Assembly: GCA_025999455.1 (NCBI GenBank)
Contig: AP024683.1
Coordinates: 3,474,451 to 3,538,450, forward strand
Reading direction: 5' to 3'
Source of the DNA: Geminicoccaceae bacterium
Lineage (GTDB): Bacteria; Pseudomonadota; Alphaproteobacteria; Geminicoccales; Geminicoccaceae
DNA: 64,000 nt
Position numbers and translations under genes: made by a program. This document shows, in pieces, positions 3,588-60,491 of this stretch (within the stretch, counting starts at the first letter, position 1; the number at the start of each line of letters is the position of its first letter). The notes beneath the pieces were generated by a model. The model did no database searches. It was not told where the DNA came from and worked only from the letters and a program-made list of their open reading frames with translations.

Positions 3588-4292
3588 GTGTTGACCCGCG
3601 AGCGCATCCGCGCCGGCTGGGTGCAGGAACTCGTGCGCGCGCACGGCGTGCCGGGCGTCCTCGACGAGGAGGAACTCGCCGCCTCGCGCGCTGCTTGCCT
3701 CGCGAAGCGACCGCCCGGTGCGCCGGTCTGGGTGTTCGGCTACGGCTCGCTGATCTGGAACCCCTGTTTCCACTACGTGGAGCGGCGGGTCGTCACCGTG
3801 GTCGGTTGGCACCGCCGCTTCTGCCTCTGGACGAGCATCGGCCGCGGCACGCCCGATCGACCGGGCCTGATGCTCGGCCTCGAGCCGGGCGGCTCGTGCC
3901 GCGGGGTCGCGTTCCGCATCGCCGAAGACGAGGTCGAAACCGAGCTCGACATCATCTGGCGGCGCGAGATGGTGACCGCGGCTTATCGCCCCACCTGGGT
4001 CACGGCGAAAGGCGAGGGCGAGACCTTGCGGGCGATCGCCTTCACGATCAACCGCACCCATCCGCGCTACGCCGGCCGGCTGCCCGAGGCGCGAATCGTC
4101 GAGGCACTCGCCACGGCCCGTGGCCCGGTGGGTCCCTGCTGCGACTATCTGTTCAACACCGTGGCGCATCTCGAGGAGCTCGGCGTGCCGGACCGGCGGC
4201 TCGCGGCGCTGTGCCACGCCGTTCGCGAACGCCAAGCGCGGGCCGCCTTCGCCGATCGACCGGCACCCGCGCGAACGGCCCGCGAGGGTTGA
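3588..4292 (+). CDS. Gamma-glutamylcyclotransferase, ChaC family
   Basis: About 234 residues with the ChaC substrate-binding loop VFGYGSLIWNP near residue 47 and the acidic ETELDIIWRREM segment that carries the catalytic Glu. The ChaC family converts gamma-glutamyl peptides, chiefly glutathione, to 5-oxoproline and the remaining dipeptide in the cytosol. The GTG at 3588 is chosen because a strong Shine-Dalgarno (aaggaggt, 3573-3580) lies 7 nt upstream; a TTG follows immediately. The gene is separated from rsmD by 61 bp and may have its own promoter. Confidence 0.9.
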   Translation: MLTRERIRAGWVQELVRAHGVPGVLDEEELAASRAACLAKRPPGAPVWVFGYGSLIWNPCFHYVERRVVTVVGWHRRFCLWTSIGRGTPDRPGLMLGLEPGGSCRGVAFRIAEDEVETELDIIWRREMVTAAYRPTWVTAKGEGETLRAIAFTINRTHPRYAGRLPEARIVEALATARGPVGPCCDYLFNTVAHLEELGVPDRRLAALCHAVRERQARAAFADRPAPARTAREG

Positions 4293-4299
4293 CGACCGG

Positions 4300-4330
4300 T
4301 TAACGCGGCATCGTACGACGATGCCGTTAA
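4300..4330. promoter_or_regulatory. Inverted repeat upstream of the RTX gene
   Basis: Two arms, ttaac(gc)ggcatcgt and acgatgccgttaa, flank a 3-nt centre (acg), 105 bp before the RTX start. There is no T-run, so it is not an ordinary intrinsic terminator. It could be an operator or a stem in the leader. A further ttaacc lies at 4338-4343. Confidence 0.4.
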
Positions 4331-4434
4331 GTCCCTCTTAACCAAGCGATCTCTCCCCCCGGCGGGAATACCGGGAGCGACGACGCACACCGCCGCGGGT
4401 CGCCCTCCGCGCGGTCCAGCCGGGATGAGAGACC

Positions 4435-6360
4435 GTGAGCACCATCACCCTCGCGCGCAGTTTCGACCGCCTGCTCGACCCCTTCGAGCCGTCTTCCGCG
4501 CACTCTTGGAGCCGAGAGTTCGGGACGACCAACTTCAGCTGGAGGGTGCGTCCTTACGACGCCGACGACGTGCCTCTGGTGAAGCTCTCGCTGAGGGGCA
4601 CGCCGGGCAACAAGACGCTCGACGTCGGCATGGGCGACCGTGGGTTCGGCAAGGTGGGGGCGCTCGCCCTCTCCGCCGACGATGCCCTCATGGCCGAGGT
4701 CTCGAAGATCAACATCAAGAACTTCGCCGACGTGCGGATCGACCTCGGCGACGGCATCTTCGCGGGCCCCGCGACCGAGGAGGTCACGGTCCGCATCACG
4801 AACTTCGTCCGCGGCGCGCTCGACGCCACCGACATGGACGGGCCGCTGCGGCTGCATCTCGACCTGCTCAACAATTCGCTGACCAAGCCGAACCTCTTCA
4901 CCGCGAACCTGAGCGAGCACGACGACTGGATCGAGGTCGGCTCGGGCTGGCTCGGCAAGGGCAAGAAAGCGATCCCCGCCTACAACGGCCGCGACACCGA
5001 GATCCGCATCGATCTCGGGAACGGCGACGACACCTATCTCTCGAACGTCGCCTTCGCCTCCAAGGACACGATCGTCGGCGGCTTCGGACGGGACAAGATC
5101 TACGGGGGATCGGGCGACGATCTGATCTTCGGCGACCAGGACGAGCGCGGCTTCACGTCCACGCTCGACGTCAAGCTCGAGGTCCGGTTCGTCTCCGAAA
5201 GCGCCGATTTCCGCAACGTCGTCGGGTGGTACGATCGGACGACCGGCGAGGCGCACATCCTCCTCGCCAACACCGACCTCGACAGCGATCCGAACGTCGT
5301 CCGCTTCCTGGCCGAGCTGCAGCTCACGCCGGAGCAGTACCGTAATCTCGAGTTCTTCTTGATCCCGAACGGCTATGCCGAGAACCCGTGGCTCGCCGAG
5401 GGTGACCCGACCCAGCTCGAGCTGCGAGTGGTCCGCGAGGGCGGTCATTGGGTCTTGAAGGAGCTCGAGACCGGCACGGTCCTGCGCGGCTTCGACGGCG
5501 TCGACGCGCTCTTCACGCAAACGAGCAAGAACCCGGACGGCTGGCACGCCGGCCATCTCGTCGACCTCGACGGCGGCAGCCGCGATTTCGCGCTGCGCTT
5601 CGAAGACCTGCCGTCCCGCTCGGGTGATTTCGACGATGCCGTCTTCGGCGTGCGTGCCCGGGTCGAGAGCGGGCTACCGGGCAACGATTACGTGAACGGC
5701 GGCGCCGGCGACGATCACCTCTGGGGCGGCAAGGACAACGGTCGCTACGCTCTCAAATACCTCATCGACGGTGACTTCGACCTGTTCGGCGAAACCTACG
5801 CCGCATCCGATGCCTTCGCCGAGGCTTACGTCAACGAGTTCGGCAACATCGTCGTGACGATCGGCGGCTCGCTGCAGGCACTCGCCTTGCTGGAGCTCGA
5901 CGACGGCGAACGCGTCTTGATGCTCATCCAGCTCACGGGCGAGCTCTACGGCGAAGCCAACGTCACGATCACCAACGACTTCCTGGTCGACACGTTCGCG
6001 ACCTTCGGCGGTGACGTGAACGTCGAGGTCATCCCTGTCGAGGATTTCACCGGTCCACTCGTCCTCTTCAACGAGGTCGAGATCCTCTCGGGTGACCATC
6101 TCCTGGGGGAGGCGGGTCGGGACACCTTCTGGTTCGACGACGGCGACGGGGTCGACATCATCGGCGACTTCAAACGCGGCGTCGACCAACTCAAGCTCGA
6201 GCGGGGCGAGCCGATCCGCCAGACCGTGGTGACCGATGCCACCTACGGCCGCGGCCTCCTGATCGAGCACGGCGGCGACGGGGACGCGGTCTTCCTCAAA
6301 GGTGTCGAGGACGTGCTCAACCTCGTCCACTCGGGCGGCGGCTACGACACCTACACCTGA
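4435..6360 (+). CDS. RTX-like Ca2+-binding secreted protein with a DUF4114 domain
   Basis: 641 residues, acidic, Gly/Asp-rich, almost free of Cys, with no N-terminal signal peptide; all of this fits type I secretion. Two short clusters of RTX nonapeptides are visible: GGFGRDKIYGGSGDDLIFGD near residue 215 and GNDYVNGGAGDDHLWGG near 420. Between them, residues ~260-405 read as a DUF4114 domain (NVVGWYD, FFLIPNGY, HLVDLDGG, LRFEDLPSRSGDFDDAVFGV). The C-terminus has a final DTFWFDDGDGVDIIGDF block common near type I secretion signals. No ABC transporter, membrane-fusion protein or TolC is in the window. It sits directly upstream of the small Sec/double-glycine genes and is probably part of the same surface programme; that link is inferred from position only. 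Confidence 0.85.
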   Translation: MSTITLARSFDRLLDPFEPSSAHSWSREFGTTNFSWRVRPYDADDVPLVKLSLRGTPGNKTLDVGMGDRGFGKVGALALSADDALMAEVSKINIKNFADVRIDLGDGIFAGPATEEVTVRITNFVRGALDATDMDGPLRLHLDLLNNSLTKPNLFTANLSEHDDWIEVGSGWLGKGKKAIPAYNGRDTEIRIDLGNGDDTYLSNVAFASKDTIVGGFGRDKIYGGSGDDLIFGDQDERGFTSTLDVKLEVRFVSESADFRNVVGWYDRTTGEAHILLANTDLDSDPNVVRFLAELQLTPEQYRNLEFFLIPNGYAENPWLAEGDPTQLELRVVREGGHWVLKELETGTVLRGFDGVDALFTQTSKNPDGWHAGHLVDLDGGSRDFALRFEDLPSRSGDFDDAVFGVRARVESGLPGNDYVNGGAGDDHLWGGKDNGRYALKYLIDGDFDLFGETYAASDAFAEAYVNEFGNIVVTIGGSLQALALLELDDGERVLMLIQLTGELYGEANVTITNDFLVDTFATFGGDVNVEVIPVEDFTGPLVLFNEVEILSGDHLLGEAGRDTFWFDDGDGVDIIGDFKRGVDQLKLERGEPIRQTVVTDATYGRGLLIEHGGDGDAVFLKGVEDVLNLVHSGGGYDTYT

Positions 6361-6430
6361 TCCCGTCGGCGCCGGGGGCGGTCGTCGCGGCCGCCCCCGC
6401 TTCCCCGCGACACGAGGAGGAGACCTCGAG

Positions 6431-6694
6431 ATGCGCTTCAGGACCCTTCTGTTGACGACGACGTTCCTGACGTTCGCGAGCTTCGTCCGGGCGGAGCCCG
6501 TGATGCTCGACGGCACGGCTCTGGACGGCGTCGTGGCCGGGCGCCTGCGAGCCACCTTCTTCACGGTCGGCGCCATGGCGACGGCCACGGCGAACGGGGT
6601 CGAATCCCGCTCGGACGCGACCGCCACCATGTCGGCCGATCGCCGGTCGATGTCGGCGCGGACCGTGAGCCGCGCCGCAGCCCGCTGGCGTTGA
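6431..6694 (+). CDS. Small secreted protein with Sec signal plus AG-type leader (paralogue 1)
   Basis: 87 residues. A Sec signal peptide ends at about SFVRA (residue 21) and is followed by EPVMLDGTALDGVVAG, which ends in the L-D-x-V-x-A-G site shared by four other small proteins in this cluster. The remainder is Ala/Thr/Ser-rich, with an Arg-rich end. It is preceded by a gaggagg ribosome site, and the ATG at 6431 places the signal peptide at the N-terminus. It is 70 bp after the RTX gene. I infer that it is exported by Sec and then trimmed by the cluster's C39 peptidase. It is the shortest and least repetitive paralogue and may be damaged at its 3' end. Confidence 0.7.
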   Translation: MRFRTLLLTTTFLTFASFVRAEPVMLDGTALDGVVAGRLRATFFTVGAMATATANGVESRSDATATMSADRRSMSARTVSRAAARWR

Positions 6695-6714
6695 GCGGGA
6701 CGGCTACGTCGAAG

Positions 6715-6800
6715 GGAGGATGCACCTCCGCGCCCTTGCACCACCCGGCCCGCCCGCGCACTCTGTGCCGTCGATGGGGACGGAGGTCTCGGCACCTCCG
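6715..6800 (+). promoter_or_regulatory. Two short inverted repeats in the leader of paralogue 2
   Basis: ggagg-atgca-cctcc lies at 6715-6729 and cggaggt-ctcggc-acctccg at 6781-6800, just before the ribosome site (gggagg, 6801-6806) of the gene at 6812. The second stem abuts the ribosome site and could affect initiation. This is a sequence observation; no regulation is demonstrated. Confidence 0.3.
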
Positions 6801-6811
6801 GGGAGGGATCG

Positions 6812-7249
6812 ATGCGGGGAGCGGGCCTCGGAATCCTGATCGCGGCGGGTTTGCTCGTAGTGGCGGCGAGCGATGCGCGCGCGGCCGACGACGTCTTGGG
6901 GCCGGCCCAACTCGACGAGATCGTGGCGGGTGGGGCCGCGCGAACGAAGCTCGGCCGACTGGAGCGGCTGCGGCTCAAACTCGAGATGCTGGAAAAGCGC
7001 GGCGCGAGCGAGAAGGCCCGCCAGCGTCTCGCCGCGGCCATCGCGCGGCTCGAGGCGAAGGCCACCGGAACCGGCGGGAAGGTCGAGGTCGAGGCGGAAG
7101 CGAGCGCCTCGGGTGATCGGACCTCGACCGCCACGACGAAACGTACGGGCAGTTCGAGCGGGTCGGCGAGCGCGTCGGCCTCGGCGAGCTCGAGCGGCGG
7201 CCGAAGCGCGAGCGCGTCGAGCTCGGCATCGGTCACGGTTCGCAACTGA
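6812..7249 (+). CDS. Small secreted Ser/Ala-rich protein with Sec signal plus GG leader (paralogue 2)
   Basis: 145 residues. The signal peptide ends near SDARA and is followed by ADDVLGPAQLDEIVAGG, the family leader with a true double glycine. After it comes a basic, helix-forming stretch (residues ~45-90, with heptad-like Leu/Glu/Arg spacing) and a C-terminal Ser/Ala/Gly low-complexity tail with repeated SAS units, ending SVTVRN. Alternating small and polar residues are typical of fibre or amyloid-like material. The ribosome site gggagg precedes the ATG by 5 nt. A clear hairpin terminator follows. It is probably a substrate of the C39 peptidase and pore encoded 5 kb away. Confidence 0.75.
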   Translation: MRGAGLGILIAAGLLVVAASDARAADDVLGPAQLDEIVAGGAARTKLGRLERLRLKLEMLEKRGASEKARQRLAAAIARLEAKATGTGGKVEVEAEASASGDRTSTATTKRTGSSSGSASASASASSSGGRSASASSSASVTVRN

Positions 7250-7270
7250 CCCGGTCCCGGTCGAGGTCGA

Positions 7271-7304
7271 AAGCCGCGTCGGTGACGGCCGACGCGGCTT
7301 TTCG
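7271..7304. terminator. Intrinsic terminator after paralogue 2
   Basis: A perfect stem (aagccgcgtcgg / ccgacgcggctt) with a short loop is followed by tttcg. It lies 21 bp past the stop of the plus-strand gene and 13 bp from the 3' end of the convergent GT41 gene, so it may serve both. Confidence 0.8.
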
Positions 7305-7316
7305 TTCGGTTGCGCT

Positions 7317-9725
7317 TCAGCCGGCGCTCCGCGCGAGCCAATCTTCCCACATGGTGCGGAACGCGTCCGCGAGCTCCCGCGCCGCTCGCCCGGGATCGCA
7401 GAGCGGGCTGCGCCGGACTTGCTCGCGCTGCCCGAGCCTGATGCCGGCGAGGCGTCCCACGTCTTCGGCGAGTTCGAGGGCCACCTCGACATAATCCTCG
7501 GGATCGTCAGCGATCCATTCCGGCCGACGGATCGCCTCGAGCAGCATCGCACCTTGGCGCGAGACGGGCTGCCAACTCGGCAGCGTCACCAAAGGAACAC
7601 CCATCCACAGCGCATCGAGGCTGGTCTGACCGCCCCCGAACGGAAACGGATCGAGGGCGATGTCCACGTCGCCGTACTGCGCGAGCATCTCGACGTAGCC
7701 CGAGGCCGGACGCAGGACGAGGCGCTCCGGGTCGATCCCGTGTGCGGCGAAGGCGGCGCGGACTTCGGCGACGACCACGGGATCGGCGAGCGTGCGCCAC
7801 TTCAAGATCAGGCGCGAGTCCGGCAGCCGGCGCAAGATCGTGGCCCAGGTCGCGACCACCTCGGGCGTGACCTTGGAGAGATTGTTGAAACTGCCGAAGG
7901 TGATCCGCCCGCTCGTGAGCGCGGGGGGCAGCGCGACGGGCGGTGCCCCGCTCGGCGGCTCGAGGACGTAGCGTCCGCCGGGAAGGTGGATCACCCGTTC
8001 GACGAACATGTCCTCGTCTTCGGGCCGAACCGAGATCGGGTCCATCAGGATCCAGTCGATCTCGCGCAGCCCGGTCGTGAACGGGTAGCCGAGCCAACTG
8101 GCCTGGACGGGTGCAGGGCGGAGCGCGAAACAACCGAGTCGGTTGCCCGCGGTGTGGCCCGCGAGATCGACCAGGATGTCGATCCGCTCGCTGCGGACGA
8201 GCTCGGCGAGCGCTCGATCGCCGAGGCCCCCCACCCGATGCCAGGCCGTACCGAGCCGGCGCAGCCGCTCGCTCACGGCGTCTTCCTTGGCGCCGGTCGA
8301 GTAGAAGAAGACCGGGAATCGGTCGCGGTCGAGCGCGCCGAGCACCCCGACGAGCATGAAGCCCACGGGGTGGCGGTTGAGATCGGCCGAGACGAAGCCG
8401 ATCCGCAGCGGCCGGTTCGAGCTCCGTTCGTTGGGCCAATCGCGGAACCGATCGGGACGGTCGCCGAAGCGCTCGCCGAAGCGGCGGTGCGCGGCAACCA
8501 CGCTGTTCCGATCGAGCTTCGGGTCGTAACAACAGCACCAGAGGAGATTGTCGAAGGCGGCGACCATCCCGGGGTCGAGCTCGAGCGCCCGCTCGAAGGC
8601 GGCCCGAGCCTCCTCGAGACGGCCCATGTCCATGAGGATGTTGCCGCGATTGCTGTGGATCGCGGCGTTGCCGGGTTGCAGCGCCAGGGCCGCCTCGTAG
8701 GCGGCGACCGCCTCGCTGGCGCGCCCCAAGGTCCGCAGAACGTTGCCACGTTCGACGAGCGCCTCACAGAACCGTGGATCGAGCTCGAGCGCGCGATCGA
8801 TCGCCGCGAGCGCCTCGCTCGCTCGCCCGAGCTGATGCAGCGCGATGCCTCGACCGAGCAGGCTCACCGGGAGCTCGCCGCCGCAGCGGCACGATCGGTC
8901 GAACGCCGAGATCGCCTCCTCCTCGCGATCGAGTTGGAGGAGAACGAGGCCCCGCTCGCAATAGGCGCGGGCATGCTCCGGGTCGATCTCGACCGCCTCC
9001 TCGAGGGCGGTGAGGGCGTCCTCGTGTCGGCCCACCCCGCGCAGCGCACAGCCCCGCCAATAAAGCAGCTCCGCCGAGCGGGCGCCGGCCGCGAGGGCCT
9101 CGTCGGTCGCCGCGACCGCCTCCTCGAACCGACGCTGGCGAACGAGGAACTCCGCTTGATTGAGCCGCGCGGGCAGATAGGCTGGATCGTTCGCCACCGC
9201 CGCCGCGAAGGCCGCGAGCGCCTCCTCCGTGCGACCGAGGGCGCGGAGCACGAGGCCGCGGTCGTTGTGCGCGGCGGCGGATCGCGGTGCCGACACGAGC
9301 GCGCGATCGAGGGCGGCCAGCGCCTCGTCGAGCCGACCCGTTCGCCACAGGACGCGGCCGAGATCGGCCCGGACCTCGGCGTCGGCTCCCGGCAGCCCGG
9401 CCGCGACCTCGAGATCGGCCACCGCCTCGTCGATCCGCCCGAGATGCTCGAGGAGCAGGGCACGATTGTGGCGTGCGAGGAGGAGCGCGGGGTCGCGTTC
9501 CACGGCACGGTCCCAACCAGCGAGAGCCGCATCGTATCGGCCGTGGGCTTGATCCAAGGCCGCCCCGATCGCGGCGTGCCGCGCGCTCGTGGGATCGAGC
9601 GCGTCGCGCAAGCGCGCGGCTTCGTCGTAGTTCCCGTGGGCGAGCGCGCGCAGGGCAAGGCGCCAGTTTTCGTCTTCCGCTTGCCTCGCGGTCGCCGAGG
9701 CCGTCTGCTCTTGCTCCCGCAGCAT
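7317..9725 (-). CDS. TPR-containing GT41 (SPINDLY/OGT-type) glycosyltransferase
   Basis: 802 residues. Residues ~20-400 are about eleven tandem tetratricopeptide repeats, with recurring A-x-x-x-x-x-A-L-x-L-x-P units. The catalytic part (~420-800) has the GT41 landmarks: RIGFVSADLNRHPVGFM with the catalytic His, DILVDLAGHTAGNR, PAPVQASWLGYPFTTG, FGSFNNLSKVTPEV and DPFPFGGGQTSLDALWMGVP. GT41 enzymes transfer sugars from nucleotide donors to Ser/Thr (OGT) or, in the HMW1C branch, to Asn of adhesins in the cytoplasm before export. It sits among genes for Ser/Thr/Asn-rich secreted proteins, which makes those proteins its best candidate substrates. That substrate link is inference. Confidence 0.9.
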   Translation of the reverse strand: MLREQEQTASATARQAEDENWRLALRALAHGNYDEAARLRDALDPTSARHAAIGAALDQAHGRYDAALAGWDRAVERDPALLLARHNRALLLEHLGRIDEAVADLEVAAGLPGADAEVRADLGRVLWRTGRLDEALAALDRALVSAPRSAAAHNDRGLVLRALGRTEEALAAFAAAVANDPAYLPARLNQAEFLVRQRRFEEAVAATDEALAAGARSAELLYWRGCALRGVGRHEDALTALEEAVEIDPEHARAYCERGLVLLQLDREEEAISAFDRSCRCGGELPVSLLGRGIALHQLGRASEALAAIDRALELDPRFCEALVERGNVLRTLGRASEAVAAYEAALALQPGNAAIHSNRGNILMDMGRLEEARAAFERALELDPGMVAAFDNLLWCCCYDPKLDRNSVVAAHRRFGERFGDRPDRFRDWPNERSSNRPLRIGFVSADLNRHPVGFMLVGVLGALDRDRFPVFFYSTGAKEDAVSERLRRLGTAWHRVGGLGDRALAELVRSERIDILVDLAGHTAGNRLGCFALRPAPVQASWLGYPFTTGLREIDWILMDPISVRPEDEDMFVERVIHLPGGRYVLEPPSGAPPVALPPALTSGRITFGSFNNLSKVTPEVVATWATILRRLPDSRLILKWRTLADPVVVAEVRAAFAAHGIDPERLVLRPASGYVEMLAQYGDVDIALDPFPFGGGQTSLDALWMGVPLVTLPSWQPVSRQGAMLLEAIRRPEWIADDPEDYVEVALELAEDVGRLAGIRLGQREQVRRSPLCDPGRAARELADAFRTMWEDWLARSAG

Positions 9726-9816
9726 CGCTCCGCTCCGCCGGATCCACGGACAAGCCGCCGTCGAGAAGGAAGGTACCGCGCGGCGTGACCCGTGTCGTCC
9801 GCTTCGCCAGCCGGAC

Positions 9817-9847
9817 GAAAAGCGGGCATCGCTCGCGCGATGCCCGC
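9817..9847 (-). terminator. Terminator-like hairpin with no gene assigned to it
   Basis: On the minus strand, gcgggcatcg and cgatgcccgc form a perfect 10-bp stem followed by cttttcg. Paralogue 3 already has its own terminator 220 bp upstream, so this one may end an unannotated short transcript or act as a second barrier before the GT41 gene. Confidence 0.55.
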
Positions 9848-10065
9848 CTCGTCGTCCTGCCTCTGGCGTTGCCGCCGCCGGTCGCCTGGATCACGCCTGC
9901 GGTCGCCGATGCCTCCGCTCTTCCCTTTCGGCTCGCTCGCTCCTCTCAGGGAGGAGGCGGCTGGATCGAACTCGAAGGCTCGGCTTTCGCCGCCGCTCCC
10001 GACCGCCGGCACCAGAAACGCATGCCCTTCGCACCTTCCGCCGGAAGCGACGCGCTAGGTTCCGG

Positions 10066-10103
10066 AAAAAGGGCTGCCGCACGGCGATCGACGCGGCAGC
10101 CCT
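10066..10103 (-). terminator. Intrinsic terminator after paralogue 3
   Basis: On the minus strand an agggctgccgc / gcggcagccct stem is followed by a run of T (cctttttcc). It begins 13 bp past the stop of the gene ending at 10116. Confidence 0.8.
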
Positions 10104-10115
10104 CCGTCCGGTCGG

Positions 10116-10532
10116 TCAGGGTGTCACGACCCGAAGCCGGAGCGAGAGATCCCCGGCCGAGCTGTAGCCGCCACCGACCGCAGTGGAGCCGGTCCCGCTC
10201 GCGTTGGCGCTCGTCGACGAGCTCGCCATACGCGTCGAGGTCGTGCTGATCGACGTAGTCGAGCCGGCGCTCGACGTCGTCTCGCTGGAGTTCAGCGTGT
10301 CGTTCGTGCTCGCGCTGTTGCTCGTCGAGATGCTGGCGCTCGTATTACCGGCAGCCGCGGCGTCCGAGGTCGCCGCCGCCCACGAGAGCTGCAGCCTCGC
10401 CCTGATCCGCAAGCCGCCCGACACCTCGTCTAGCTGGTCGGCGGTGAGCTTGATCGGCTCGGCGGCCCACGCACCGCCCGCCAGGACGAGGCCGGCCGCA
10501 CCGGCCATCAACGACTTCGAGAGAGTCTTCAT
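10116..10532 (-). CDS. Small secreted Ser/Thr/Asn-rich protein with Sec signal plus GG leader (paralogue 3)
   Basis: 138 residues. A canonical Sec signal (MKTLSKSLMAG... to GAWA) is followed by AEPIKLTADQLDEVSGG, the clearest double-glycine leader of the family: it resembles bacteriocin leaders, yet lies behind a Sec signal. The mature part is almost entirely Ser, Thr, Ala, Asn and Gly (about residues 55-120) with no Cys, closing with a short amphipathic strand (LSLRLRVVTP). The ATG is preceded by gaggaggg. It is followed by a strong terminator and is the last of three minus-strand paralogues. Predicted role: secreted fibre or matrix subunit. Confidence 0.8.
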   Translation of the reverse strand: MKTLSKSLMAGAAGLVLAGGAWAAEPIKLTADQLDEVSGGLRIRARLQLSWAAATSDAAAAGNTSASISTSNSASTNDTLNSSETTSSAGSTTSISTTSTRMASSSTSANASGTGSTAVGGGYSSAGDLSLRLRVVTP

Positions 10533-10599
10533 AGGCGTTTCCCTCCTCACCACTCGGGTCGGTTCGTACCGGACCACCCGGCCGTCGGCCGACCCCTCC

Positions 10600-10619
10600 G
10601 AAACCTCGCGGAAACCTCG
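10600..10619. promoter_or_regulatory. Direct repeat upstream of paralogue 3
   Basis: The 9-bp sequence gaaacctcg occurs twice, at 10600-10608 and 10611-10619, 11 bp apart (about one helical turn) and 68-87 bp upstream of the start codon. The spacing suits a dimeric regulator on one DNA face. The LuxR-type protein of this cluster is a candidate binder. Confidence 0.4.
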
Positions 10620-10651
10620 GCCACAAGGCAACGGTCCGCACACCTCGATGC

Positions 10652-11020
10652 TCAACCGTCGGCCGGGACCTTGCTCGCCGACACGATCAGGAACCCGCCG
10701 ACACCCGCCGAGGATGCTCCCGGGCCCGAGCCGGAGGCCGAGCCGCTGGCGCTCGCGGAAACGTCCACCGACGAGCCGGTCTCGACGCCGTTCTTCTCCT
10801 GATAGGTGCTCTTGAAGTTCGCCTTGTTGGCGGTCCGGATACTCGCCCTGGCACCGCCGGTCGCCTGCGCGCCCACGCTCGAAACGGCGTAGCCTTGCCA
10901 GCGGCCGGCCGTCACGGCGTCGAGGTCGGCATCGCCCAGTCGCACCGCGTCGCCGGCCGAAGCCACGCCGCCCGCCGTCCCGATCAGGACCGCCATCGCG
11001 ATCGCGCTCATCCAACGCAT
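10652..11020 (-). CDS. Small secreted Ser/Ala/Gly-rich protein with Sec signal plus AG leader (paralogue 4)
   Basis: 122 residues. The signal peptide MRWMSAIAMAVLIG... ends near GVASA and is followed by GDAVRLGDADLDAVTAG, the shared leader. The mature part begins RWQGYAVSSVGAQATGG, has a middle segment with polar and charged residues (KANFKSTYQEKN) and then an SASASGSASGSG-type tail ending in a hydrophobic strand (VGGFLIVSAS). The ATG at 11020 is chosen because it places the signal sequence at the N-terminus; a second Met lies three codons later. It is 207 bp downstream of paralogue 5 on the same strand. Confidence 0.78.
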   Translation of the reverse strand: MRWMSAIAMAVLIGTAGGVASAGDAVRLGDADLDAVTAGRWQGYAVSSVGAQATGGARASIRTANKANFKSTYQEKNGVETGSSVDVSASASGSASGSGPGASSAGVGGFLIVSASKVPADG

Positions 11021-11227
11021 GCTGTCGCTCCGTTGCCCGGGGCCACGATCGACCGGCGATCGGGCCGATTTCTCTTGTTCACCATGCCCTCGGACCTGCA
11101 CGTTCCACAACGGCGCATTGGGCGGATCACCGAAAGGGTGAATCGTACCGCCCAGAGCGGTCCGGCCGACCCCCTTCGGTCGCACGAGCACGGGTCGCCC
11201 CCCGAAGCCCAGCCGGTCGGACGCCGT

Positions 11228-11674
11228 TCAGGGCGTGGACGGCATCTTCATCGCCACGACGACGACGAAGCTGTAATCGACTTGATAGAAGCGCCCGCCG
11301 AACCGCCGTTTGATTTCGCGGCGGATCACCCGATCGAACGGTCCGCTCACCTGCACGTCGGCGTTGCTCGAGGCCTGCGGATTTTCGCCGATACCGACAC
11401 CGATGGCCGAAGCCGAGCCCGTGGCGGTCGCGCTGTTACCGTTCGTGTTGGCCGAAAGGTCGAGATTCGCGGTCGAGCTCGAGCCCATGCTGCCGTTGCC
11501 CGACGCCTCGGCCTCGCCGGCGATCCCGTAGGTGGCACCGGCCACGACCCGATCGAGCGCGGCCAAATCCAGCCGAACCGGCGCCGAGTCCTCGGCGGCC
11601 CATACCGTCCCGACGAGCAGACTGCCCAACACACAGCCGAGACTCGCGACGGGACGAATCACGCGCTCGATCAT
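11228..11674 (-). CDS. Small secreted Asn/Ser/Ala-rich protein with Sec signal plus AG leader (paralogue 5)
   Basis: 148 residues. The signal peptide ends near GTVWA, followed by AEDSAPVRLDLAALDRVVAG, three or four residues longer than in the paralogues but with the same L-D-x-V-x-A-G end. The mature region has Gly/Ser/Asn/Ala stretches (SANTNGNSATATGSASA) and, unlike the others, a structured basic end (VIRREIKRRFGGRFYQVDY) followed by a hydrophobic strand. That C-terminus might act as a nucleator or anchor. The ribosome site aggaggg precedes the ATG. It is transcribed divergently from the C39 peptidase gene, which shares its 289-bp upstream region. Confidence 0.78.
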   Translation of the reverse strand: MIERVIRPVASLGCVLGSLLVGTVWAAEDSAPVRLDLAALDRVVAGATYGIAGEAEASGNGSMGSSSTANLDLSANTNGNSATATGSASAIGVGIGENPQASSNADVQVSGPFDRVIRREIKRRFGGRFYQVDYSFVVVVAMKMPSTP

Positions 11675-11963
11675 GTTCTCACCCTCCTGGTCCCTCCCGG
11701 TCGACCGTCGTGGACGACCGGTGGCCGTTTCCTCCCGGCTTCGGTGCACTCGACGCCGGCACACGCCCGCCATTTCCCGGGCGTTAACCAACCTGATCGG
11801 TGCCGAGGCTTCAAGCGAGCAAAAGGTGGAACGCCTACCACCTTCGTGCGAGGTGACCGTGGCCGCGCGATCACCGGGACCACCGGCGGCTGCCCCGCCG
11901 AACCGGTTTCGATTGACAGCGCTTCCCTTTCGCCCGAATCGACGGTCGCAAGGGGATGCCGAC
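11675..11963. promoter_or_regulatory. Divergent promoter region of the secretion cluster
   Basis: These 289 bp separate paralogue 5 (minus) from the C39 peptidase (plus). Within them, aaggtgg and ccacctt form a perfect 7-bp inverted repeat with an 8-bp spacer at 11823-11844, the best operator candidate. A locally A/T-richer stretch (gcgttaacc) lies at 11781-11789. I cannot assign -35/-10 boxes with confidence. Confidence 0.5.
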
Positions 11964-12644
11964 ATGAAGCGCTCGGCTCGACGTGAACTCAGCGGACCGG
12001 CATCGCAGCCCCCGCGCCCGAGACGGGGCACCGTTGCCGCCGTTTTTGTGTCGGCGGCGATCGGCGTGGGCTGGCCCGCCCTCGCGGCGGAGCCACGGCC
12101 GCCCGTCCGATCCTTGCTCGAAGTCCGACAGTCGGGTGTGGTCATCCAGAAGTTCGACATCAGCTGTGGCGCCGCCGCCCTCGCCACCATCCTCCGCTAC
12201 CAACACGGCGACATGGTCGAGGAACGCGAGGTCGCGATCGGCCTGATGGGCCGTGCCGAATATCTCGAGCGGCCGGAAATCGTGCGGATCCGGCAGGGCT
12301 TTTCGCTCCTCGACCTCAAGCGCTTCGTCGACGCGCGCGGCTACGAAGGGGTCGGCTACGGGCGCATGGATCTCGACGATCTGATCGCCAAAGCGCCGGC
12401 GATCGTCCCGGTGTCCGTCAACGACTACAACCACTTCGTCGTGTTCCGCGGCCGGCTCGGCAACCGCGTGCTGATTGCCGATCCGGCGTTCGGCAACGTG
12501 ACGATGACGGTCGAGGCCTTCGAGCGCGCCTGGATCGACTACGGCGACATCGGCAAGGTGGCCTTCGTAGTCCAACGCCGCGACGGCCCGGCACCGCCCG
12601 GTCGCCTGGCGGCGCGCCCCGAGGAATTCTTGTTCCTGCGCTGA
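11964..12644 (+). CDS. Periplasmic C39 family cysteine peptidase, FapD-like
   Basis: 226 residues. An N-terminal signal segment (after RRGTVAAVFVSAAIG, ending near ALAAE, residue 42) sends it to the periplasm. The C39 catalytic residues are in order: Cys68 in FDISCGAAALAT, His157 in NDYNHFVVFRG and Asp173 in VLIADPAFGNV. Standalone periplasmic C39 peptidases of this size with the DxSCGAAxLAT motif include FapD of the Pseudomonas Fap functional-amyloid operon. Here five nearby Sec substrates carry double-glycine-like sites, the sequence C39 peptidases cut, so this is their probable processing enzyme. The ribosome site aagggga precedes the ATG. The outer-membrane pore gene follows 29 bp later. 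Confidence 0.88.
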   Translation: MKRSARRELSGPASQPPRPRRGTVAAVFVSAAIGVGWPALAAEPRPPVRSLLEVRQSGVVIQKFDISCGAAALATILRYQHGDMVEEREVAIGLMGRAEYLERPEIVRIRQGFSLLDLKRFVDARGYEGVGYGRMDLDDLIAKAPAIVPVSVNDYNHFVVFRGRLGNRVLIADPAFGNVTMTVEAFERAWIDYGDIGKVAFVVQRRDGPAPPGRLAARPEEFLFLR

Positions 12645-12673
12645 GCGACGGCTGATGACGGGGAGAGGGTGAC

Positions 12674-13891
12674 GTGCAGAGGACGAGCGTCGGCGCGGTC
12701 GCGTGGCTCATGGGGGGTGCCGCTGCCCTCGCGCTCCTGGCCGGCGAGCCCGGGCGGGCGGTCGCTCAGACCTCGGTGCCCACGGCCGAGGAGTTGCAGC
12801 GGCAGTTGCGGCAGCGCGATCAAGCCATCGCGGTCCTGCGGCGGCGGCTCGACGCCCTCGAAAAGCGTCTCGCCGAGACGGAGAAGCTCGCCAGGGGTGC
12901 GGTGCAGATGGGCGAGACCCAGCCGGTCGCGGCACCGGCTCCCGCACCCGCTCCGCCCGTGGCGCCGGCACCTCAGCCGCCGGCCCCGGCGGTCGCCGAG
13001 CGACCGCGCGCACCCGGCCAGGTCGAGGTGGACTTGCTCGCGGCCGAGCGAGCGCTCGAGCGCGTCCTCGTGCGGACCGGCGCGCTCCTGCTCGGCCCCG
13101 GCCAAGCCGAGCTCGAGCCGAGCTTCACCTATCAGTACAACGAGTCCTCGGGCCCGGTTCTGTTCCTCGACGGCGCCGGCAACATCGTGGGCGTCGGAAA
13201 CCGCAAGCTCCGCCGCGAGCTCTGGCAACCGGAGCTCGGCTTGCGGGTGGGCCTACCCTTCGACAGCCAGATCGAATTCTCGATCCCCTACAATTACGTC
13301 GACCAGGCCTTGATCGACGAGGAGGGGCAGGTGCCGGTCGGCGGCCGTTACGATCGGGGTGGCGCGATCGGGGATCTGAACATCGCGTTCGCGAAGACCC
13401 TCTTGCGCGAGGACGGCTGGGTCCCCGACCTCATCGGCCGGCTGAGCTGGGATACGGCGACCGGCGAAACCCGTGACGGCGGAGTGTCCCTGCCGGCCGG
13501 GTTCCACGAGGTCCAGGCCCAGCTCGTCGCCATCAAGCGCAACGACCCGCTCGTGTTCCTCCTGTCGGGCAGCTACCAGTACGCGTTCGAGAACGACGAC
13601 GTGAAGCCGGGCCAGCAGCTCGGCCTCACCTTCGGTTCGATCCTCGCCACGAGCCCGTCGACGTCCTTGCGGGCGAGCTTCGAAACGGTGTTCGGCACCC
13701 GCGCCGAGGTCAATGGACAGGAGCTCAAAGGCTCCGACTTCACGGCGGCGAGCCTCAATCTCGGCGCCTCGATCGTCCTGGCTCCTCGGATCCTCTTCGA
13801 CATCGTCGGGACGATCGGTGTCACCGAGGACGCCGCCGACTACGCCGTCAAAGTGTCGGTACCGATTCGATTCGATACGCCCATCTTCTGA
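12674..13891 (+). CDS. Outer-membrane beta-barrel export pore, FapF-like
   Basis: 405 residues. A signal peptide ends near GRAVAQ (residue ~34). A coiled coil follows at ~38-78 (TAEELQRQLRQRDQAIAVLR and so on), then an Ala/Pro linker (~83-115) and a beta-strand-rich barrel (~140-405) ending in aromatic Phe (IRFDTPIF), as outer-membrane proteins do. This order of coiled coil, linker and barrel is that of FapF, the trimeric pore for Fap amyloid subunits; the start of the barrel (GPGQAELEPSFTYQYNES) resembles that of the FapF family. The GTG start has a ggggagagggtg site upstream. It is probably cotranscribed with the C39 peptidase. Confidence 0.8.
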   Translation: MQRTSVGAVAWLMGGAAALALLAGEPGRAVAQTSVPTAEELQRQLRQRDQAIAVLRRRLDALEKRLAETEKLARGAVQMGETQPVAAPAPAPAPPVAPAPQPPAPAVAERPRAPGQVEVDLLAAERALERVLVRTGALLLGPGQAELEPSFTYQYNESSGPVLFLDGAGNIVGVGNRKLRRELWQPELGLRVGLPFDSQIEFSIPYNYVDQALIDEEGQVPVGGRYDRGGAIGDLNIAFAKTLLREDGWVPDLIGRLSWDTATGETRDGGVSLPAGFHEVQAQLVAIKRNDPLVFLLSGSYQYAFENDDVKPGQQLGLTFGSILATSPSTSLRASFETVFGTRAEVNGQELKGSDFTAASLNLGASIVLAPRILFDIVGTIGVTEDAADYAVKVSVPIRFDTPIF

Positions 13892-13944
13892 ACGGCGGCG
13901 CCGGAGGCTCGGGCGCGCGGCGCACCGAGCCTCGGCTCCGGATC

Positions 13945-13972
13945 GCCGGGACCGACGACTGTCGGCCCCGGC
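13945..13972. terminator. Strong hairpin between convergent pore and regulator genes
   Basis: gccggg-a-ccgac / gtcgg-c-cccggc pair around a 4-nt loop (gact) with a single mismatch. There is no long T-run on either side, so it may act as a Rho-independent or merely stabilising 3' hairpin for either gene. Confidence 0.5.
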
Positions 13973-13977
13973 GCGTG

Positions 13978-14799
13978 TCAATGCTGGGGGACGAGTTCGC
14001 GCAGCTTCAAAGCGACCTCGGTGCGGTTTCTCGCGCCCAGTTTGCGCATGATCTGGCGGACGTGAACCTTCACCGTGCTCTCGCACATCGCCAAGCGCTG
14101 GGCGATGACCTTGTTCGGTCGCCCTTGCCCCAGGAGCTCCAGGACCTGGCGCTGGCGCGGTGTGAGGTTCCCCAGGGGCCCGCAGCTCCCGTTCTCGTAG
14201 GAAACCGGTTCGCTCGGCTCCGCCAGCCGAGCGGCTGCACGGTGCTCGTTCGTGAGGAACGGCTCGACCGGCGCGTAGATGCTGCCGGCGAGCACGACCC
14301 CGAGGGCGTGGCGGACAACCTCCGGTGCGACGCTGGTCGGCAAGTAGCCCCGCACCCCCACACGCAAGGCGGCCAAGATGCTTTCGCGGTCGCCGCGCTC
14401 GGCGAGCAACACGACGGGCACCTGCGGCATCTCGGTACGCAGCCGACGCAGATCGTCGGCAACCGGCGCGTCGTCCACGGTCATGCCGCCGATGCTCAAG
14501 ATGACGAGCTCGATCGGCGCTCCCCCGTCGGTGAGCAGCGGCGCGATCTCGGCAGCACTGGAGAGCGGCACGGTCCGCCCGCCCACGTCCCACCGTTCGA
14601 GGCTCGTCACGAGGCAGGCACAGCGCAGCGGTTGCCGATCGATCAACACGAAACGGGCCGTCACCGGTTGCGTGACCCTCTCGCCTTCGATCGCCGAAGC
14701 GACGGGGACCGAACCGACCTCGCTAGGCCTGCTCGCCGGACCGCGAGACTTCGCGCGCTCCTGCCCGTTGTGACCGTTGAGCCCGTAGACTCTGCTCAC
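13978..14799 (-). CDS. LuxR/NarL-type regulator with degenerate receiver
   Basis: About 273 residues. The C-terminal HTH is a full LuxR domain (NLTPRQRQVLELLGQGRPNK, then IAQRLAMCESTVKVHVRQIM). The N-terminal part has the receiver pattern, including LVAERGDRES-like and GVRGYLPTS elements, but the strand that should carry the phospho-acceptor Asp reads ELVILSIGG, with no Asp. It is therefore probably not phosphorylated, as in CsgD, the regulator of curli amyloid. The GTG at 14799 is preferred (ggggga 6 nt upstream); a TTG at 14817 is possible. It lies next to the pore gene and is the obvious candidate regulator of the cluster. Confidence 0.85.
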   Translation of the reverse strand: MSRVYGLNGHNGQERAKSRGPASRPSEVGSVPVASAIEGERVTQPVTARFVLIDRQPLRCACLVTSLERWDVGGRTVPLSSAAEIAPLLTDGGAPIELVILSIGGMTVDDAPVADDLRRLRTEMPQVPVVLLAERGDRESILAALRVGVRGYLPTSVAPEVVRHALGVVLAGSIYAPVEPFLTNEHRAAARLAEPSEPVSYENGSCGPLGNLTPRQRQVLELLGQGRPNKVIAQRLAMCESTVKVHVRQIMRKLGARNRTEVALKLRELVPQH

Positions 14800-14910
14800 C
14801 GCGTTTCCCCCGCCCAACTTTCAATTGATCGACAAATTTCGGATTCGCTCAGCCCGTAGGTCGTCTGCCCTTCGTTTTCTCCCCCGTTTCGTCGAGCCTT
14901 CCTCACGAAT

Positions 14911-14927
14911 GACAAGGATGCCTTGTC
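14911..14927. promoter_or_regulatory. Perfect inverted repeat upstream of the LuxR-type gene
   Basis: gacaagg-atg-ccttgtc, with 7-bp arms and a 3-bp centre, lies 112 bp upstream of the GTG in an otherwise gene-free and A/T-richer region (14800-15017). It is a plausible autoregulatory operator. Confidence 0.5.
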
Positions 14928-15017
14928 GCTACTCGCTTAACAAGTCATTACCTCGGGGCGGGGGATCGCAAAAGCCACAGGTCACCTCGGCAGCCCCCGG
15001 GTACGCGAGACAGGTGC

Positions 15018-56633: not shown

Positions 56634-58187
56634 TCAGCCGGCGCGCCAGACCACGACCTCGCGTGCCGGCTCGCCCCGGAGCTTCGCGAAGGCGTGGCCC
56701 GAGGCGAGGCGCTCGAGCCGGGCGTTCCCCCCGAAGATCCGCCGCGTCGCGCCGGGTCTGGCGTTCGTCGCGAAGGCCAGCACGAGCCCCATCTCGGCGA
56801 GGAAGTCGTCCTCTTCGCCCTCGAAATCGTCGGGCGATTGCGACACGAGCCAGACCATCCCGCCCTTCGAGCGCGACAGCCGCACGAGGTTCGAGAGCCC
56901 CGGAAGCTTGCGCCCGAGCACCCGATGCGCCTCGTCGATCACCGCGACGATCCGGAGCGCGCGGTTGCCGTCGGCATCGACCGGCGCGTCGGGCCGGCTG
57001 TTCAGCCAGCGGTCGAGGGCATCGGTGACGAGCGTGACGACGACGCTGCGCACGAGGTCCGGCAGATCCTGGCCGATCCGCACGACCCAGGATCGCGCGA
57101 AGAAGGCCGCCGGCGGCAGCTCCGGCGCGAAGAGCTCGAACCGGCAGATGTCGCGGAGGGTGGCCACGGCGCCGTCCTCGGCCTTCTCGCGTTCTCGGTA
57201 GAGCGCCACGAGCGCGTCGCGGACGTCGCTCAGCCGGCACGGACGGTGCTGCGCGAGCGCTCGCTCCGTCGACTCGGCCAAGAGGTCCCGCTGCTGCGCC
57301 CCGAAATCCGATCGTTTCAGGGTGGCGAGGCTGTCGCGCAAGCGTTGCGCGGTGAGTTCGAGTGCGTGCGGCTTCGTCTCGTCGAACGCGAGCACGTCGA
57401 GCGGCAGCGGTCGCTCGAGCGGATCGACGACCTGGGCACCGAACGCCCGGTCGAGTCCGTCTTCGCCGCCGGCGAGATCGCCTTTGAAATCGAAGGCGAG
57501 GATCGGCACGCGTGCCTGCGCCGCGAGCGCGTTGAGCATGAAACGTGCCGTGCGCGTCTTGCCGCTCCCGACCCCACCCATGATCGCGACGTGGGGGCTC
57601 GCGCCGGGGGCGACGGGGCAGAACCGGACGGGTTCGCTATTGTGGGCGTCCAAACCTCTCGGCCCGATCGGCAGAACGATCGGACGCGGCACCAATTCGT
57701 CCGCGTGCCCCGGTGGCCCGATGTCGTCGTCGGGGGGACGGCCGGAGGGCAGTGCGGTCTCAGCCAATCGCCGCCAGAAATTGATCGCACTCCTGTTCGA
57801 ACTCTCGAGGAGTTCGGACAACATCTTCATCCCGCGCACCCAATGGTCGCGCACCCGCCGCTGCAGATCGGCGATGGATTCGATCGGCCGTTCCTCGTAC
57901 TCGATCAACAAAGATAGCCAAGTGGCGAGGACGTCGCCCGTCCCGAACAGCACGTCGCCGCGTATCGTACGGCCCGGCTCGCCCTGCGCGGGTGGCGGGG
58001 CCTCGGGGACCGCGAGCGACCGGGCGATCGCCAGTCGCGCCGGAATGTTGTGCGTGCCGAAGCCCAAGAGGTCCTTGAGCTCCCCGGCCAGCGCGTCCGT
58101 TTCGCGGGTAGCCCGGAACGCGGCGGTCGCGACCTCGTCCAGGGTCACGGCTGGCCCCCCCTCACGTCCGTCGTTGAACGTCATCAT
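56634..58187 (-). CDS. DndE-like domain fused to a HerA-type ATPase
   Basis: 517 residues. Residues ~15-125 match the DndE (DUF1832) pattern: LKDLLGFGTHNIPARLAIAR followed by RTIRGDVLFGTGDVLATWLS and VRDHWVRGM, where DndE itself has TGITPNIAARIAFFRS. Residues ~170-515 are a HerA/FtsK-type ATPase: Walker A GGVGSGKTRTA at 204-214, DFKGDL, Walker B VAVIDEAH at ~414-421 and sensor WLVSQSPDD. DndE is part of the DndCDE phosphorothioation complex; HerA ATPases translocate DNA in other defence systems. The fusion is my reading of one contiguous frame. It overlaps the dndD stop (ATGA) and is the last gene of the locus. Confidence 0.78.
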   Translation of the reverse strand: MMTFNDGREGGPAVTLDEVATAAFRATRETDALAGELKDLLGFGTHNIPARLAIARSLAVPEAPPPAQGEPGRTIRGDVLFGTGDVLATWLSLLIEYEERPIESIADLQRRVRDHWVRGMKMLSELLESSNRSAINFWRRLAETALPSGRPPDDDIGPPGHADELVPRPIVLPIGPRGLDAHNSEPVRFCPVAPGASPHVAIMGGVGSGKTRTARFMLNALAAQARVPILAFDFKGDLAGGEDGLDRAFGAQVVDPLERPLPLDVLAFDETKPHALELTAQRLRDSLATLKRSDFGAQQRDLLAESTERALAQHRPCRLSDVRDALVALYREREKAEDGAVATLRDICRFELFAPELPPAAFFARSWVVRIGQDLPDLVRSVVVTLVTDALDRWLNSRPDAPVDADGNRALRIVAVIDEAHRVLGRKLPGLSNLVRLSRSKGGMVWLVSQSPDDFEGEEDDFLAEMGLVLAFATNARPGATRRIFGGNARLERLASGHAFAKLRGEPAREVVVWRAG

Positions 58188-60280
58188 CGGGACCCCCCAA
58201 CTGCGCCGTCGAGGCCGGTCCCAGGGAAATATCCCGTAACCGGAAACGTGACGCGGATGTCCCCCCGGGTCACGCTCTCCAGCCGATAGGCTTTGGCGAT
58301 CTTGGGGCGGATCGCCTCCAGGTAGGGACCTACCACCTCAGTGTTCGTCGAAATGAGGATCACCTGGCCTTCTCGATCGGCCAGATGTTTCAAGACGTTC
58401 AACCGATGTTCCTCGTCCAGCCGACCGACGGGCGTGTCGATGACGAGGGGAAACGTACGTCCGGAGACTTTGGCGACGGCTGCGAAAAGAGCCTGGGTGA
58501 AGATCTGCTTTTCGCCGGCCGAGAGATCGAACTCCCGCATGTTCCGGCCTTCGCGACTCAGGAGCCTCAGTTCCCCAGACGCCGAGATTTCGACCTTGTG
58601 GAAATAATCCGACCTGTGCGCCATGTTTTGGACAGCTCTTGTCATCTCCCGCCCGATCGCCTCAGCCTGCAAGAGCCACGCTTCGTCAATGAGCGCGCTG
58701 AGCATTTCTCGAAGCTTATCGGCCTGGGCGGCTCGTCGAAGGAACGGTTGAGACCCCTCGACGCGTTCTGTCAGGCGCGCCAACTCTGCCCGCTTCTGCC
58801 TCAACTCCGGCCACTTCGACCTCAAGGCATTCTCGATTTCTCCCTTCTCCCGGTTCAGGCCATCGATCCGCGTCGTAAGCTCCCGAAGCTCTTTCCTTTT
58901 ACCCTCCAAGGCGGGACCAACTACCTGGATCGATTCTATGAGACGTCCCAGCTCTTTGATTTTGGCGCTCGTCTCGTTTATTTTGACAGCGAGGCCTCTG
59001 ATGATTTCTAAGGTAACGTGCCGCGCTCTTTCCAACCGAAGCCGGATCCGCGCGTTTGTACCACCTGTCGCGTGGGGGTGGCGCAGATCAATCGGTATCC
59101 CAGGCGGCGGAGGATTCCAAAGGCGATCGAGCCCCGCTTCGATCGCAGTCCTGACCGCCACACGCTGAGGCGGGGCAATCGGCGGTACGACTTCATCCAA
59201 ACGACGGTCGATCTCGGCCCAAACCATTTCGATCCGGGCACGCGTTTCTTCGCGCCCCACAAGCCAACGTTCGCGCTTTGCTTCCTGTTCGAGCCGTGCG
59301 TCCGTCTTCAGATGCAAATGCGTACCCACAAGCGCAAGCGGCAAGTCCGCTTCCGCAAGAAAGGCGAGCTTGCTTTCCGCCTCCTCGAAAATCTTCTCCT
59401 GACGGGTCCGCTCTTCGATGAGCTCCTGTAGCTGAGCCTGGGTTCCCGGTCCATATCCGCTAAGCTCTTTTAATAGTTTATCTCGCTTTAACTCGGACTC
59501 CACAAGCTCTTTATTTATCTCACTTAACCTTTTTTCCTTCTCCACCAAATTCCCCTCCGCAGACGCAATTTCGCCTTGAAGCCTTACCATTTCCTCGTCA
59601 CAATCCATCGGTATCATTGTCCTCCGATTATCTGCGTATCGCTTCAAATCCTCTGCAAGCCGTCTTAACCAACTGAGACCGAGAAGGCCTTCTATGCTCT
59701 CTCGAATCTGCGTCGTCATGTCGCGCTCGGCGAAGACGGACGCAGCTTCTCCGTCGAATAAGAAGAACGACGCCTGGTTGGTCGGAAGGAAATTTCGGAA
59801 AATCCACTCGCGATACCAACTCTCGCGATACGGTTCATCGTCGGGAGGACCAATCGGCCGCCGCGCGACGCCTTCAAGGACCCTCAACTCTTCGCAATCC
59901 GGCAGCAACTCGCCAGAATCGGAATAATGCCAGATCCTCGTGAGCCGATAGGGCTTCGCGTGACGGTCTTCGAACTCCAAGGTAATCGACGTGGAGCTCC
60001 GCCCAGACGACAATGCTGCGGCATGGAGACAACCTCTCATGAATTTTCGAAACGATACACGCCTTTCTTCCTCATCTATTCCCGGGCGAGCCCGATTGAT
60101 GAGCGAGAGCGCATCACGACCGTAAAGCCCGAGCGCAATCGCCTCGAAAAGCGTGGTTTTTCCGAAGCCATTCAACCCGCCGATGAGAATGACGTTTCGG
60201 CCGCCCTCCGGCCTCGGAAAATCGAACAACGCGTGCTCGTATGCTTTGAAATCACGAAGTTCGATTCTGCGGAGATACAT
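58184..60280 (-). CDS. dndD: DNA sulfur modification ATPase DndD
   Basis: 698 residues, normal for DndD. Walker A is GGLNGFGKTTLFEAI (~34-48), the Q-loop region NFLPTNQASFFLFDGE (~164-179), a long coiled coil runs from ~230 to ~560, and the ABC signature LSAGEKQIFTQAL and Walker B LVIDTPVGRLD lie near 610 and 635. DndD is the SMC-like ATPase that nicks or remodels DNA for sulfur insertion by DndC. The ATG at 60280 is preferred because family homology begins MYLRRIELRDF there. It overlaps the small ORF upstream by 29 bp. Confidence 0.92.
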   Translation of the reverse strand: MYLRRIELRDFKAYEHALFDFPRPEGGRNVILIGGLNGFGKTTLFEAIALGLYGRDALSLINRARPGIDEEERRVSFRKFMRGCLHAAALSSGRSSTSITLEFEDRHAKPYRLTRIWHYSDSGELLPDCEELRVLEGVARRPIGPPDDEPYRESWYREWIFRNFLPTNQASFFLFDGEAASVFAERDMTTQIRESIEGLLGLSWLRRLAEDLKRYADNRRTMIPMDCDEEMVRLQGEIASAEGNLVEKEKRLSEINKELVESELKRDKLLKELSGYGPGTQAQLQELIEERTRQEKIFEEAESKLAFLAEADLPLALVGTHLHLKTDARLEQEAKRERWLVGREETRARIEMVWAEIDRRLDEVVPPIAPPQRVAVRTAIEAGLDRLWNPPPPGIPIDLRHPHATGGTNARIRLRLERARHVTLEIIRGLAVKINETSAKIKELGRLIESIQVVGPALEGKRKELRELTTRIDGLNREKGEIENALRSKWPELRQKRAELARLTERVEGSQPFLRRAAQADKLREMLSALIDEAWLLQAEAIGREMTRAVQNMAHRSDYFHKVEISASGELRLLSREGRNMREFDLSAGEKQIFTQALFAAVAKVSGRTFPLVIDTPVGRLDEEHRLNVLKHLADREGQVILISTNTEVVGPYLEAIRPKIAKAYRLESVTRGDIRVTFPVTGYFPGTGLDGAVGGSR

Positions 60281-60488: not shown

Positions 60489-60491
60489 GCC

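Follow-up and report, generated by a model that had tools for sequence, protein, structure and literature searches.

A glycosyltransferase of family GT41 is encoded in the midst of a group of genes for small secreted proteins in the window, a stretch of 64,000 nucleotides from a Geminicoccaceae bacterium, and this raises the question of whether the enzyme (hereafter GT41) modifies its neighbors before they leave the cytoplasm. To our knowledge, bacterial GT41s of the OGT/SPINDLY type are common and mostly have no known substrate. The features of the locus are collected in Table 1.

Table 1. Features of the GT41 locus (positions in the window).
Feature	Position	Strand	Properties
Leader protein s1	6431..6694	+	87 aa; Sec signal and LDGTALDGVVAG leader
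Leader protein s2	6812..7249	+	145 aa; coiled-coil-like segment and Ser/Ala/Gly-rich tail; convergent partner of GT41
GT41 glycosyltransferase	7317..9725	-	802 aa; ATG start to stop codon
Terminator	9822..9847	-	second perfect 11-bp stem; about 100 bp ahead of the GT41 start
Terminator	10070..10103	-	perfect 11-bp stem directly after s3, then TTTTCC
Leader protein s3	10116..10532	-	138 aa; mature part 42% Ser+Thr; directly upstream of GT41 and co-directional
Leader protein s4	10652..11020	-	122 aa
Leader protein s5	11228..11677	-	149 aa
Exported C39 cysteine peptidase, FapD/FilB-like	11964..12644	+	Cys68, His157 and Asp173 conserved
FapF-like outer-membrane pore	12674..13891	+	N-terminal coiled coil and beta-barrel
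LuxR-type regulator	13978..14817	-	conserved neighbor of the pore

The glycosyltransferase and the Fap-like locus

GT41 contains the Glyco_transf_41 domain (PF13844; E 1e-45, 156 bits against a cut-off of 25) and matches many TPR models of Pfam in its N-terminal part, with about eleven TPRs at residues 30-400 followed by a GT-B catalytic domain (residues 400-802); the protein has neither an apparent signal peptide nor an apparent membrane segment. An AlphaFold model built from nine homologues (pLDDT 89, pTM 0.82) has the same layout, about 11 TPR hairpins and then the GT-B domain, and in Foldseek it is closest to SPINDLY (SPY), followed by human OGT and 5djs, the OGT homologue of Thermobaculum terrenum (TMt 0.92, 36% identity). 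The best PDB sequence matches are Arabidopsis SPINDLY (E 2e-105), T. terrenum OGT (1e-87) and human OGT, so that the enzyme with TPRs and a GT41 domain proposed in the initial annotation is borne out by domain, model and fold. That annotation had admitted either the HMW1C branch or the OGT type, and only the second holds: the HMW1C-like N-glycosyltransferase of the PDB gives E 1e-9 only, and the HMW1C/NGT model NF049992 (NCBIfam) scores 24.8 bits, below its cut-off of 1000, which rules out the HMW1C branch. By sequence, GT41 is thus a member of the OGT/SPINDLY branch, predicted to modify Ser/Thr, in which a TPR superhelix is joined to the catalytic domain. Orthologues with 69-76% identity occur in three sister species, and a plasmid search for close GT41s returned only Azospirillum-type and other GT41s (32-41% identical). 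A plus-strand ORF overlapping the gene (6873-9788) was read as an antisense artefact of GC-rich sequence.

All five leader proteins (87-149 aa) carry a Sec signal and then a C39-type leader that ends in LxxLDxVxAG or GG. GT41 lies between s2 and s3, as initially described, convergent with the former (67-bp gap) and co-directional with the latter (390-bp gap). The neighbors had also been called rich in Ser, Thr and Asn, which is correct for Ser and Thr (20-42% of the mature s1-s5, against a median of 9% in the larger ORFs of the window) and overstated for Asn (1-7%). N-x-S/T sequons are found four times in s3, once in s5 and not at all in s1, s2 and s4. The best acceptor candidate for GT41 is predicted to be s3. 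Other alphaproteobacterial families have the same leader next to FapD-like C39 genes (L151-L155).

The C39 peptidase matches FilB (E 1e-32) and FapD (E 9e-26), both under curated cut-offs, and its catalytic triad is kept, which places it with the exported C39 peptidases of the FapD type. The model of the adjoining pore has FapF as its top 18 PDB matches (Foldseek; E 1e-17, TMt about 0.8) and its N-terminal helix (38-78) fits the FapF coiled coil, so it is assigned to the FapF type on its predicted fold, with an NCBIfam FapF score below the cut-off (E 6e-9). Models of the FapB, FapC and FapE subunits had no match among the four leader proteins scanned (s2-s5; s1 lay outside the scan), and such subunits do occur in L163 and L173. 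Because of the FapD/FilB match, the conserved triad and the fold and coiled coil of the pore, the locus is a Fap-like amyloid-secretion apparatus with substrates of its own other than FapB, FapC and FapE, whose fibers are predicted to be amyloid; the initial annotation had named the C39/pore pair but had not identified it as a Fap-type apparatus. It shares with the Pseudomonas Fap system (fapABCDEF) the periplasmic C39 peptidase (FapD), the pore fold and the small secreted substrates, and differs from it in that the Pseudomonas system is a six-gene operon without GT41 and its Fap proteins have no canonical C39 leader (PMC5557850), whereas the substrates in the window are short and bear a Sec signal and an AG leader. 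The catalytic Cys of Pseudomonas FapD is needed for FapC secretion, and its substrate has been reported as unclear (PMC5557850). The Sec signal plus LxxLDxVxAG leader offers a concrete predicted cleavage site, and hence a substrate, for a periplasmic FapD-like peptidase. Possible C39 leaders can also be seen in true fap operons, where DDALADMRG or DNELGELRGG motifs follow the signal of FapE-like or exported proteins (L163 8425-9396, L166 8719-9495).

No terminators were found between s5, s4 and s3, and two strong ones separate s3 from GT41 (Table 1), which makes co-transcription doubtful; similar hairpins are present in the same gap of L053-L056 and L060. A single operon with GT41 as the last gene after s5-s4-s3 is weakened by the terminators that follow s3 in most loci, and we infer that the substrates form one strong transcription unit and that GT41 is made separately or by lower-level read-through. 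A scan of positions 4000-15000 found no Rfam RNA families, and a promoter scan of the locus, with models that cover high-GC organisms of this sort poorly, gave no match. The RTX/DUF4114 protein encoded at 4435-6360 (641 aa, without an evident Sec signal) adjoins the locus in genus g1 only, and it was discarded as a general GT41 acceptor since it has no homologue near GT41 in genus g16.

It is moderately probable that GT41 is a dedicated cytoplasmic O-glycosyltransferase of the leader-bearing fiber proteins, which it would modify before Sec export.

Linkage, phylogeny and covariation

The family sample comprised 32 genomes (the order holds the identical 32), 15 of which contain the C39 gene. 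GT41 is found at the C39 locus in eight of these 15, in seven cases on one contig and no more than about 6 kb apart (G000, G022, G023 with two copies, G024, G025, G030 and G031) and in one, G021, across a contig break, the linkage being deduced from the fact that the contigs carrying GT41 and C39 both break near s3-type genes, of which its relative G025 has tandem repeats. The initial annotation had proposed a survey of related genomes and took a lack of co-occurrence of GT41 with the C39/pore pair as evidence against its idea; the opposite was found, and in two genera. Of the family's C39 loci, half lack a linked GT41 (G002, G012, G014, G016, G020, G027 and G029), so it is dispensable for secretion.

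Synteny in genus g1 extends over the entire region from RsuA to genes on the far side of LuxR, and therefore these genomes are not independent and the linkage there amounts to few independent events. This favors an alternative in which the neighborhood is neutral or historical, GT41 modifying other cytoplasmic proteins like eukaryotic OGT and SPY and owing its position to inherited gene order. Eukaryotic GT41s have many substrates, which agrees with such a role, as do the intergenic terminators that decouple GT41 expression from s3. This alternative appears unlikely, since the linkage is maintained in genus g16 despite different outer flanks, with the order s5-s4-s3-GT41 and the convergent leader gene kept as in g1, at identities of 45% (GT41), 55-60% (C39) and 43-44% (pore). 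Genomic context supports an association of GT41 with the C39/pore locus and its Ser/Thr-rich leader proteins.

The phylogeny also argues against mere inheritance of position. A tree built from 86 GT41 domains groups the nine locus-linked enzymes in a clade to themselves (support 0.992) and places the unlinked GT41s of the family elsewhere. The sister group is made up of the GT41s of L163, L166, L171, L072 and L073, and that of L163, from another alphaproteobacterial family, heads a co-directional and near-complete fap operon (GT41-FapB-FapC-FapD-FapE-x-FapF; NCBIfam E 1e-21, 7e-34, 2e-74, 1e-16 and 2e-117 for FapB, FapC, FapD, FapE and FapF, all under curated cut-offs), again at odds with a neutral neighborhood. 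The enzymes of L166 and L171 lie beside second FapF/C39-type loci or their substrates, and that of L072 (in G084) is separated by about 7 kb from a FapF-like gene and by about 12 kb from a C39 gene, with sugar-nucleotide genes in the interval; L073 has no C39 gene on the stretch examined.

Outside these two alphaproteobacterial lineages, linkage of GT41 to Fap-type loci is rare. A FapD-like gene is present in 46 of the 398 genomes of the phylum sample, and among the 43 checked, 18 also contain a GT41, linked in one. In G623, a member of another order drawn as 'same phylum' and not as same class, the one GT41 detected is encoded upstream of a gene for a sigma-54 regulator and a fap operon and belongs to another part of the tree than the linked clade; within its order, a GT41 is near two of 38 FapD-type loci, one of them probably by chance. 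Among the GT41 loci of named genomes, the nearest 80 include a single one with a C39 gene within 10 kb, L071, which is the G031 locus. A GT41 located 5 kb from C39 in L203 was rejected as chance, because unrelated genes lie in between.

The type of the convergent partner varies together with the type of GT41, which is likewise not expected of a neutral neighborhood. GT41-A copies (window, G023 and G024) have partners of one coiled-coil s2-type family, and GT41-B copies (G021, G025 and, more weakly, G023) have partners of another, unrelated family, with alignment scores of 211-261 within the A type, 46-216 within the B type and at background across types. G023 carries both pairs, each GT41 with its own partner. 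A duplicated cassette (RTX-end / s1 / partner / GT41) is visible at positions 3441-9296 of L054 from this genome, and the repeated RTX gene fragment suggests that it arose by segmental duplication. Loci with GT41 have 4-7 leader proteins and those without it 1-3 (p 0.0002, the loci being treated as independent though they are not). Mean Ser+Thr is also higher with GT41 (p 0.0005, and 0.005 within the family, under the same simplification), a difference that partly reflects the larger number of genes per locus, and a locus without GT41 (L068) also encodes a protein with 40% Ser/Thr. The proposal of glycosylation before export, in which the modification itself is putative, has survived the co-occurrence survey and gained support from phylogeny and covariation.

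Active site and sugar donor

Residues were mapped through an alignment with SPY. H452, N614 and K618 of GT41 correspond to H495, N661 and K665 of SPY and are invariant in all nine linked copies, so the catalytic and phosphate-binding residues (SPY H495 and K665; OGT H558), whose roles in SPY have been described (PMC9715652), are present. The size of the pocket is set by the position of SPY Y744 and OGT C917 (PMC9715652), which is occupied by Phe in the copies of the window and of g16 and by Tyr in those of the GT41-B type. The GDP-fucose pocket of SPINDLY is not retained (Tyr744 and Thr748 are replaced by F696 and Q700 in the window), and neither is the small residue of OGT, every linked copy having Phe or Tyr at the C917 position, where a bulky residue was argued to leave no room for GlcNAc (PMC9715652). 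Because of this Phe or Tyr, the donor is probably not UDP-GlcNAc. The linked copies also depart from SPY at H728 (Glu/Asp/Gln) and T748 (Gln/Met/Val/Ala), another residue takes the place of the nucleotide-stacking His of SPY in their clade, and the loop after the Y744 position reads GGG-[QMVA]-T, versus mostly [NG]-G-T-T-T in the unlinked GT41s of the family. The nucleotide pocket is thus unlike those of both OGT and SPINDLY. SPINDLY, the plant and protist protein O-fucosyltransferase, remains the nearest known enzyme in architecture (TPRs plus GT-B), sequence, fold and catalytic residues, and the differences lie in these pocket positions and in the placement of the GT41 gene in a secretion locus. 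With the T. terrenum homologue and human OGT the GT41 fold is common and the C917 equivalent differs; we know of no secretion-locus link for either of them.

The genome content does not discriminate between donors. The gmd gene (GDP-fucose supply) is above the cut-off in all linked genomes but in many others too, so it does not single out GDP-fucose as the donor, and RfbF, as an indicator of CDP-glucose, does not discriminate across genomes either. RfbF directly adjoins sister-clade GT41s in L072, L073 and L166. A glucose-1-phosphate cytidylyltransferase follows sister-clade GT41s (L170 10949-16441, L166 17437-18219, L073 3686-5512), often accompanied by epimerase and methyltransferase-like genes. 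A CDP-deoxysugar donor is hinted at for the sister-clade species.

The altered sugar-nucleotide loop would also suit an enzyme that works mainly as a TPR chaperone, keeping fiber subunits unfolded in the cytoplasm, with little or no glycosylation. The eleven TPRs are compatible with this, and the GT41 of L163 occupies the place of fapA in Pseudomonas, which has been proposed as a chaperone or regulator (PMC3684753, PMC6173800), although an intact GT-B domain with catalytic residues invariant over nine divergent copies is unexpected for a pure chaperone, and we regard this role as quite improbable. N-glycosylation of the HMW1C type (glucose onto Asn of N-x-S/T sequons in the secreted proteins), the branch that the initial annotation had also named, is very improbable in spite of the Phe at the Y744 position, shared with F517 of A. 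pleuropneumoniae HMW1C (PMC9715652), and of the sequons of s3, given that GT41 is far nearer to SPY/OGT than to NGT in sequence, that its N-terminal domain is TPR, and that sequons are lacking in three leader proteins and single in s5.

Proposed mode of action and known systems

If GT41 is a dedicated O-glycosyltransferase of the fiber proteins, its TPR superhelix would bind the new, unfolded Ser/Thr-rich chains, above all the adjoining s3 type and the convergent s2, and the GT-B domain would add a small sugar on Ser/Thr. The glycosylated protein would then be exported by Sec, the periplasmic C39 peptidase would remove the LxxLDxVxAG leader, and the FapF-like pore (proposed to be trimeric) would deliver the mature polypeptide to the cell surface. 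What has been observed is the gene content, the conservation of the GT41 and C39 active sites, the folds of pore and glycosyltransferase, the shared leader, the conserved linkage and the covariation, and from these we infer all enzymatic steps, the identity of the acceptors and the sugar.

A precedent by analogy for this order of events could be FlmG of Caulobacter, an enzyme of TPRs plus a GT-B domain whose TPRs bind the flagellins that it modifies in the cytoplasm (PMC7591256). The likeness is one of mode of action, the O-glycosylation of several paralogous exported filament proteins guided by TPRs, and the differences are that FlmG uses pseudaminic acid and that its substrates leave by the flagellar apparatus and not through Sec, C39 and FapF. 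HMW1C/ApNGT also pairs a GT41 enzyme with a secreted surface protein modified before Sec export, although it belongs to another GT41 branch, is N-linked and operates with two-partner secretion. The streptococcal Fap1 system (unrelated to Pseudomonas Fap) is Gram-positive and has unrelated enzymes and accessory Sec export. Its serine-rich repeat adhesins are comparable in that a Ser-rich surface protein is glycosylated by enzymes encoded in its locus (PMC5207161).

A candidate substrate set for GT41 is named by the conserved neighborhood, the covariation and the composition, and proteins of this small size should be easy to test. The literature searched yielded no report of sugar addition to Fap-type fibers before export: a full-text search for the Fap operon together with glycosylation gave none, and 'glycos' is absent from PMC3684753 and PMC6173800. 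We tentatively suggest, at roughly balanced chances, that the linked enzymes constitute a separate GT41 clade, which has a sugar-nucleotide pocket of its own and has specialized in glycosylating Fap-type amyloid subunits before export, with subtypes matched to subunit families and giving rise to glycosylated amyloid surface fibers. If this is true, glycosylation of a Fap-type amyloid is possible, and the view of fiber assembly and sticking would have to be revised.

Elsewhere in the window, a region of lower GC (56634-61658) encodes DndC (E 6e-122), a protein similar to DndD/PbeC (E 2e-251) and another with weak similarity to DndH, and is probably a defense system of the DNA phosphorothioation type.
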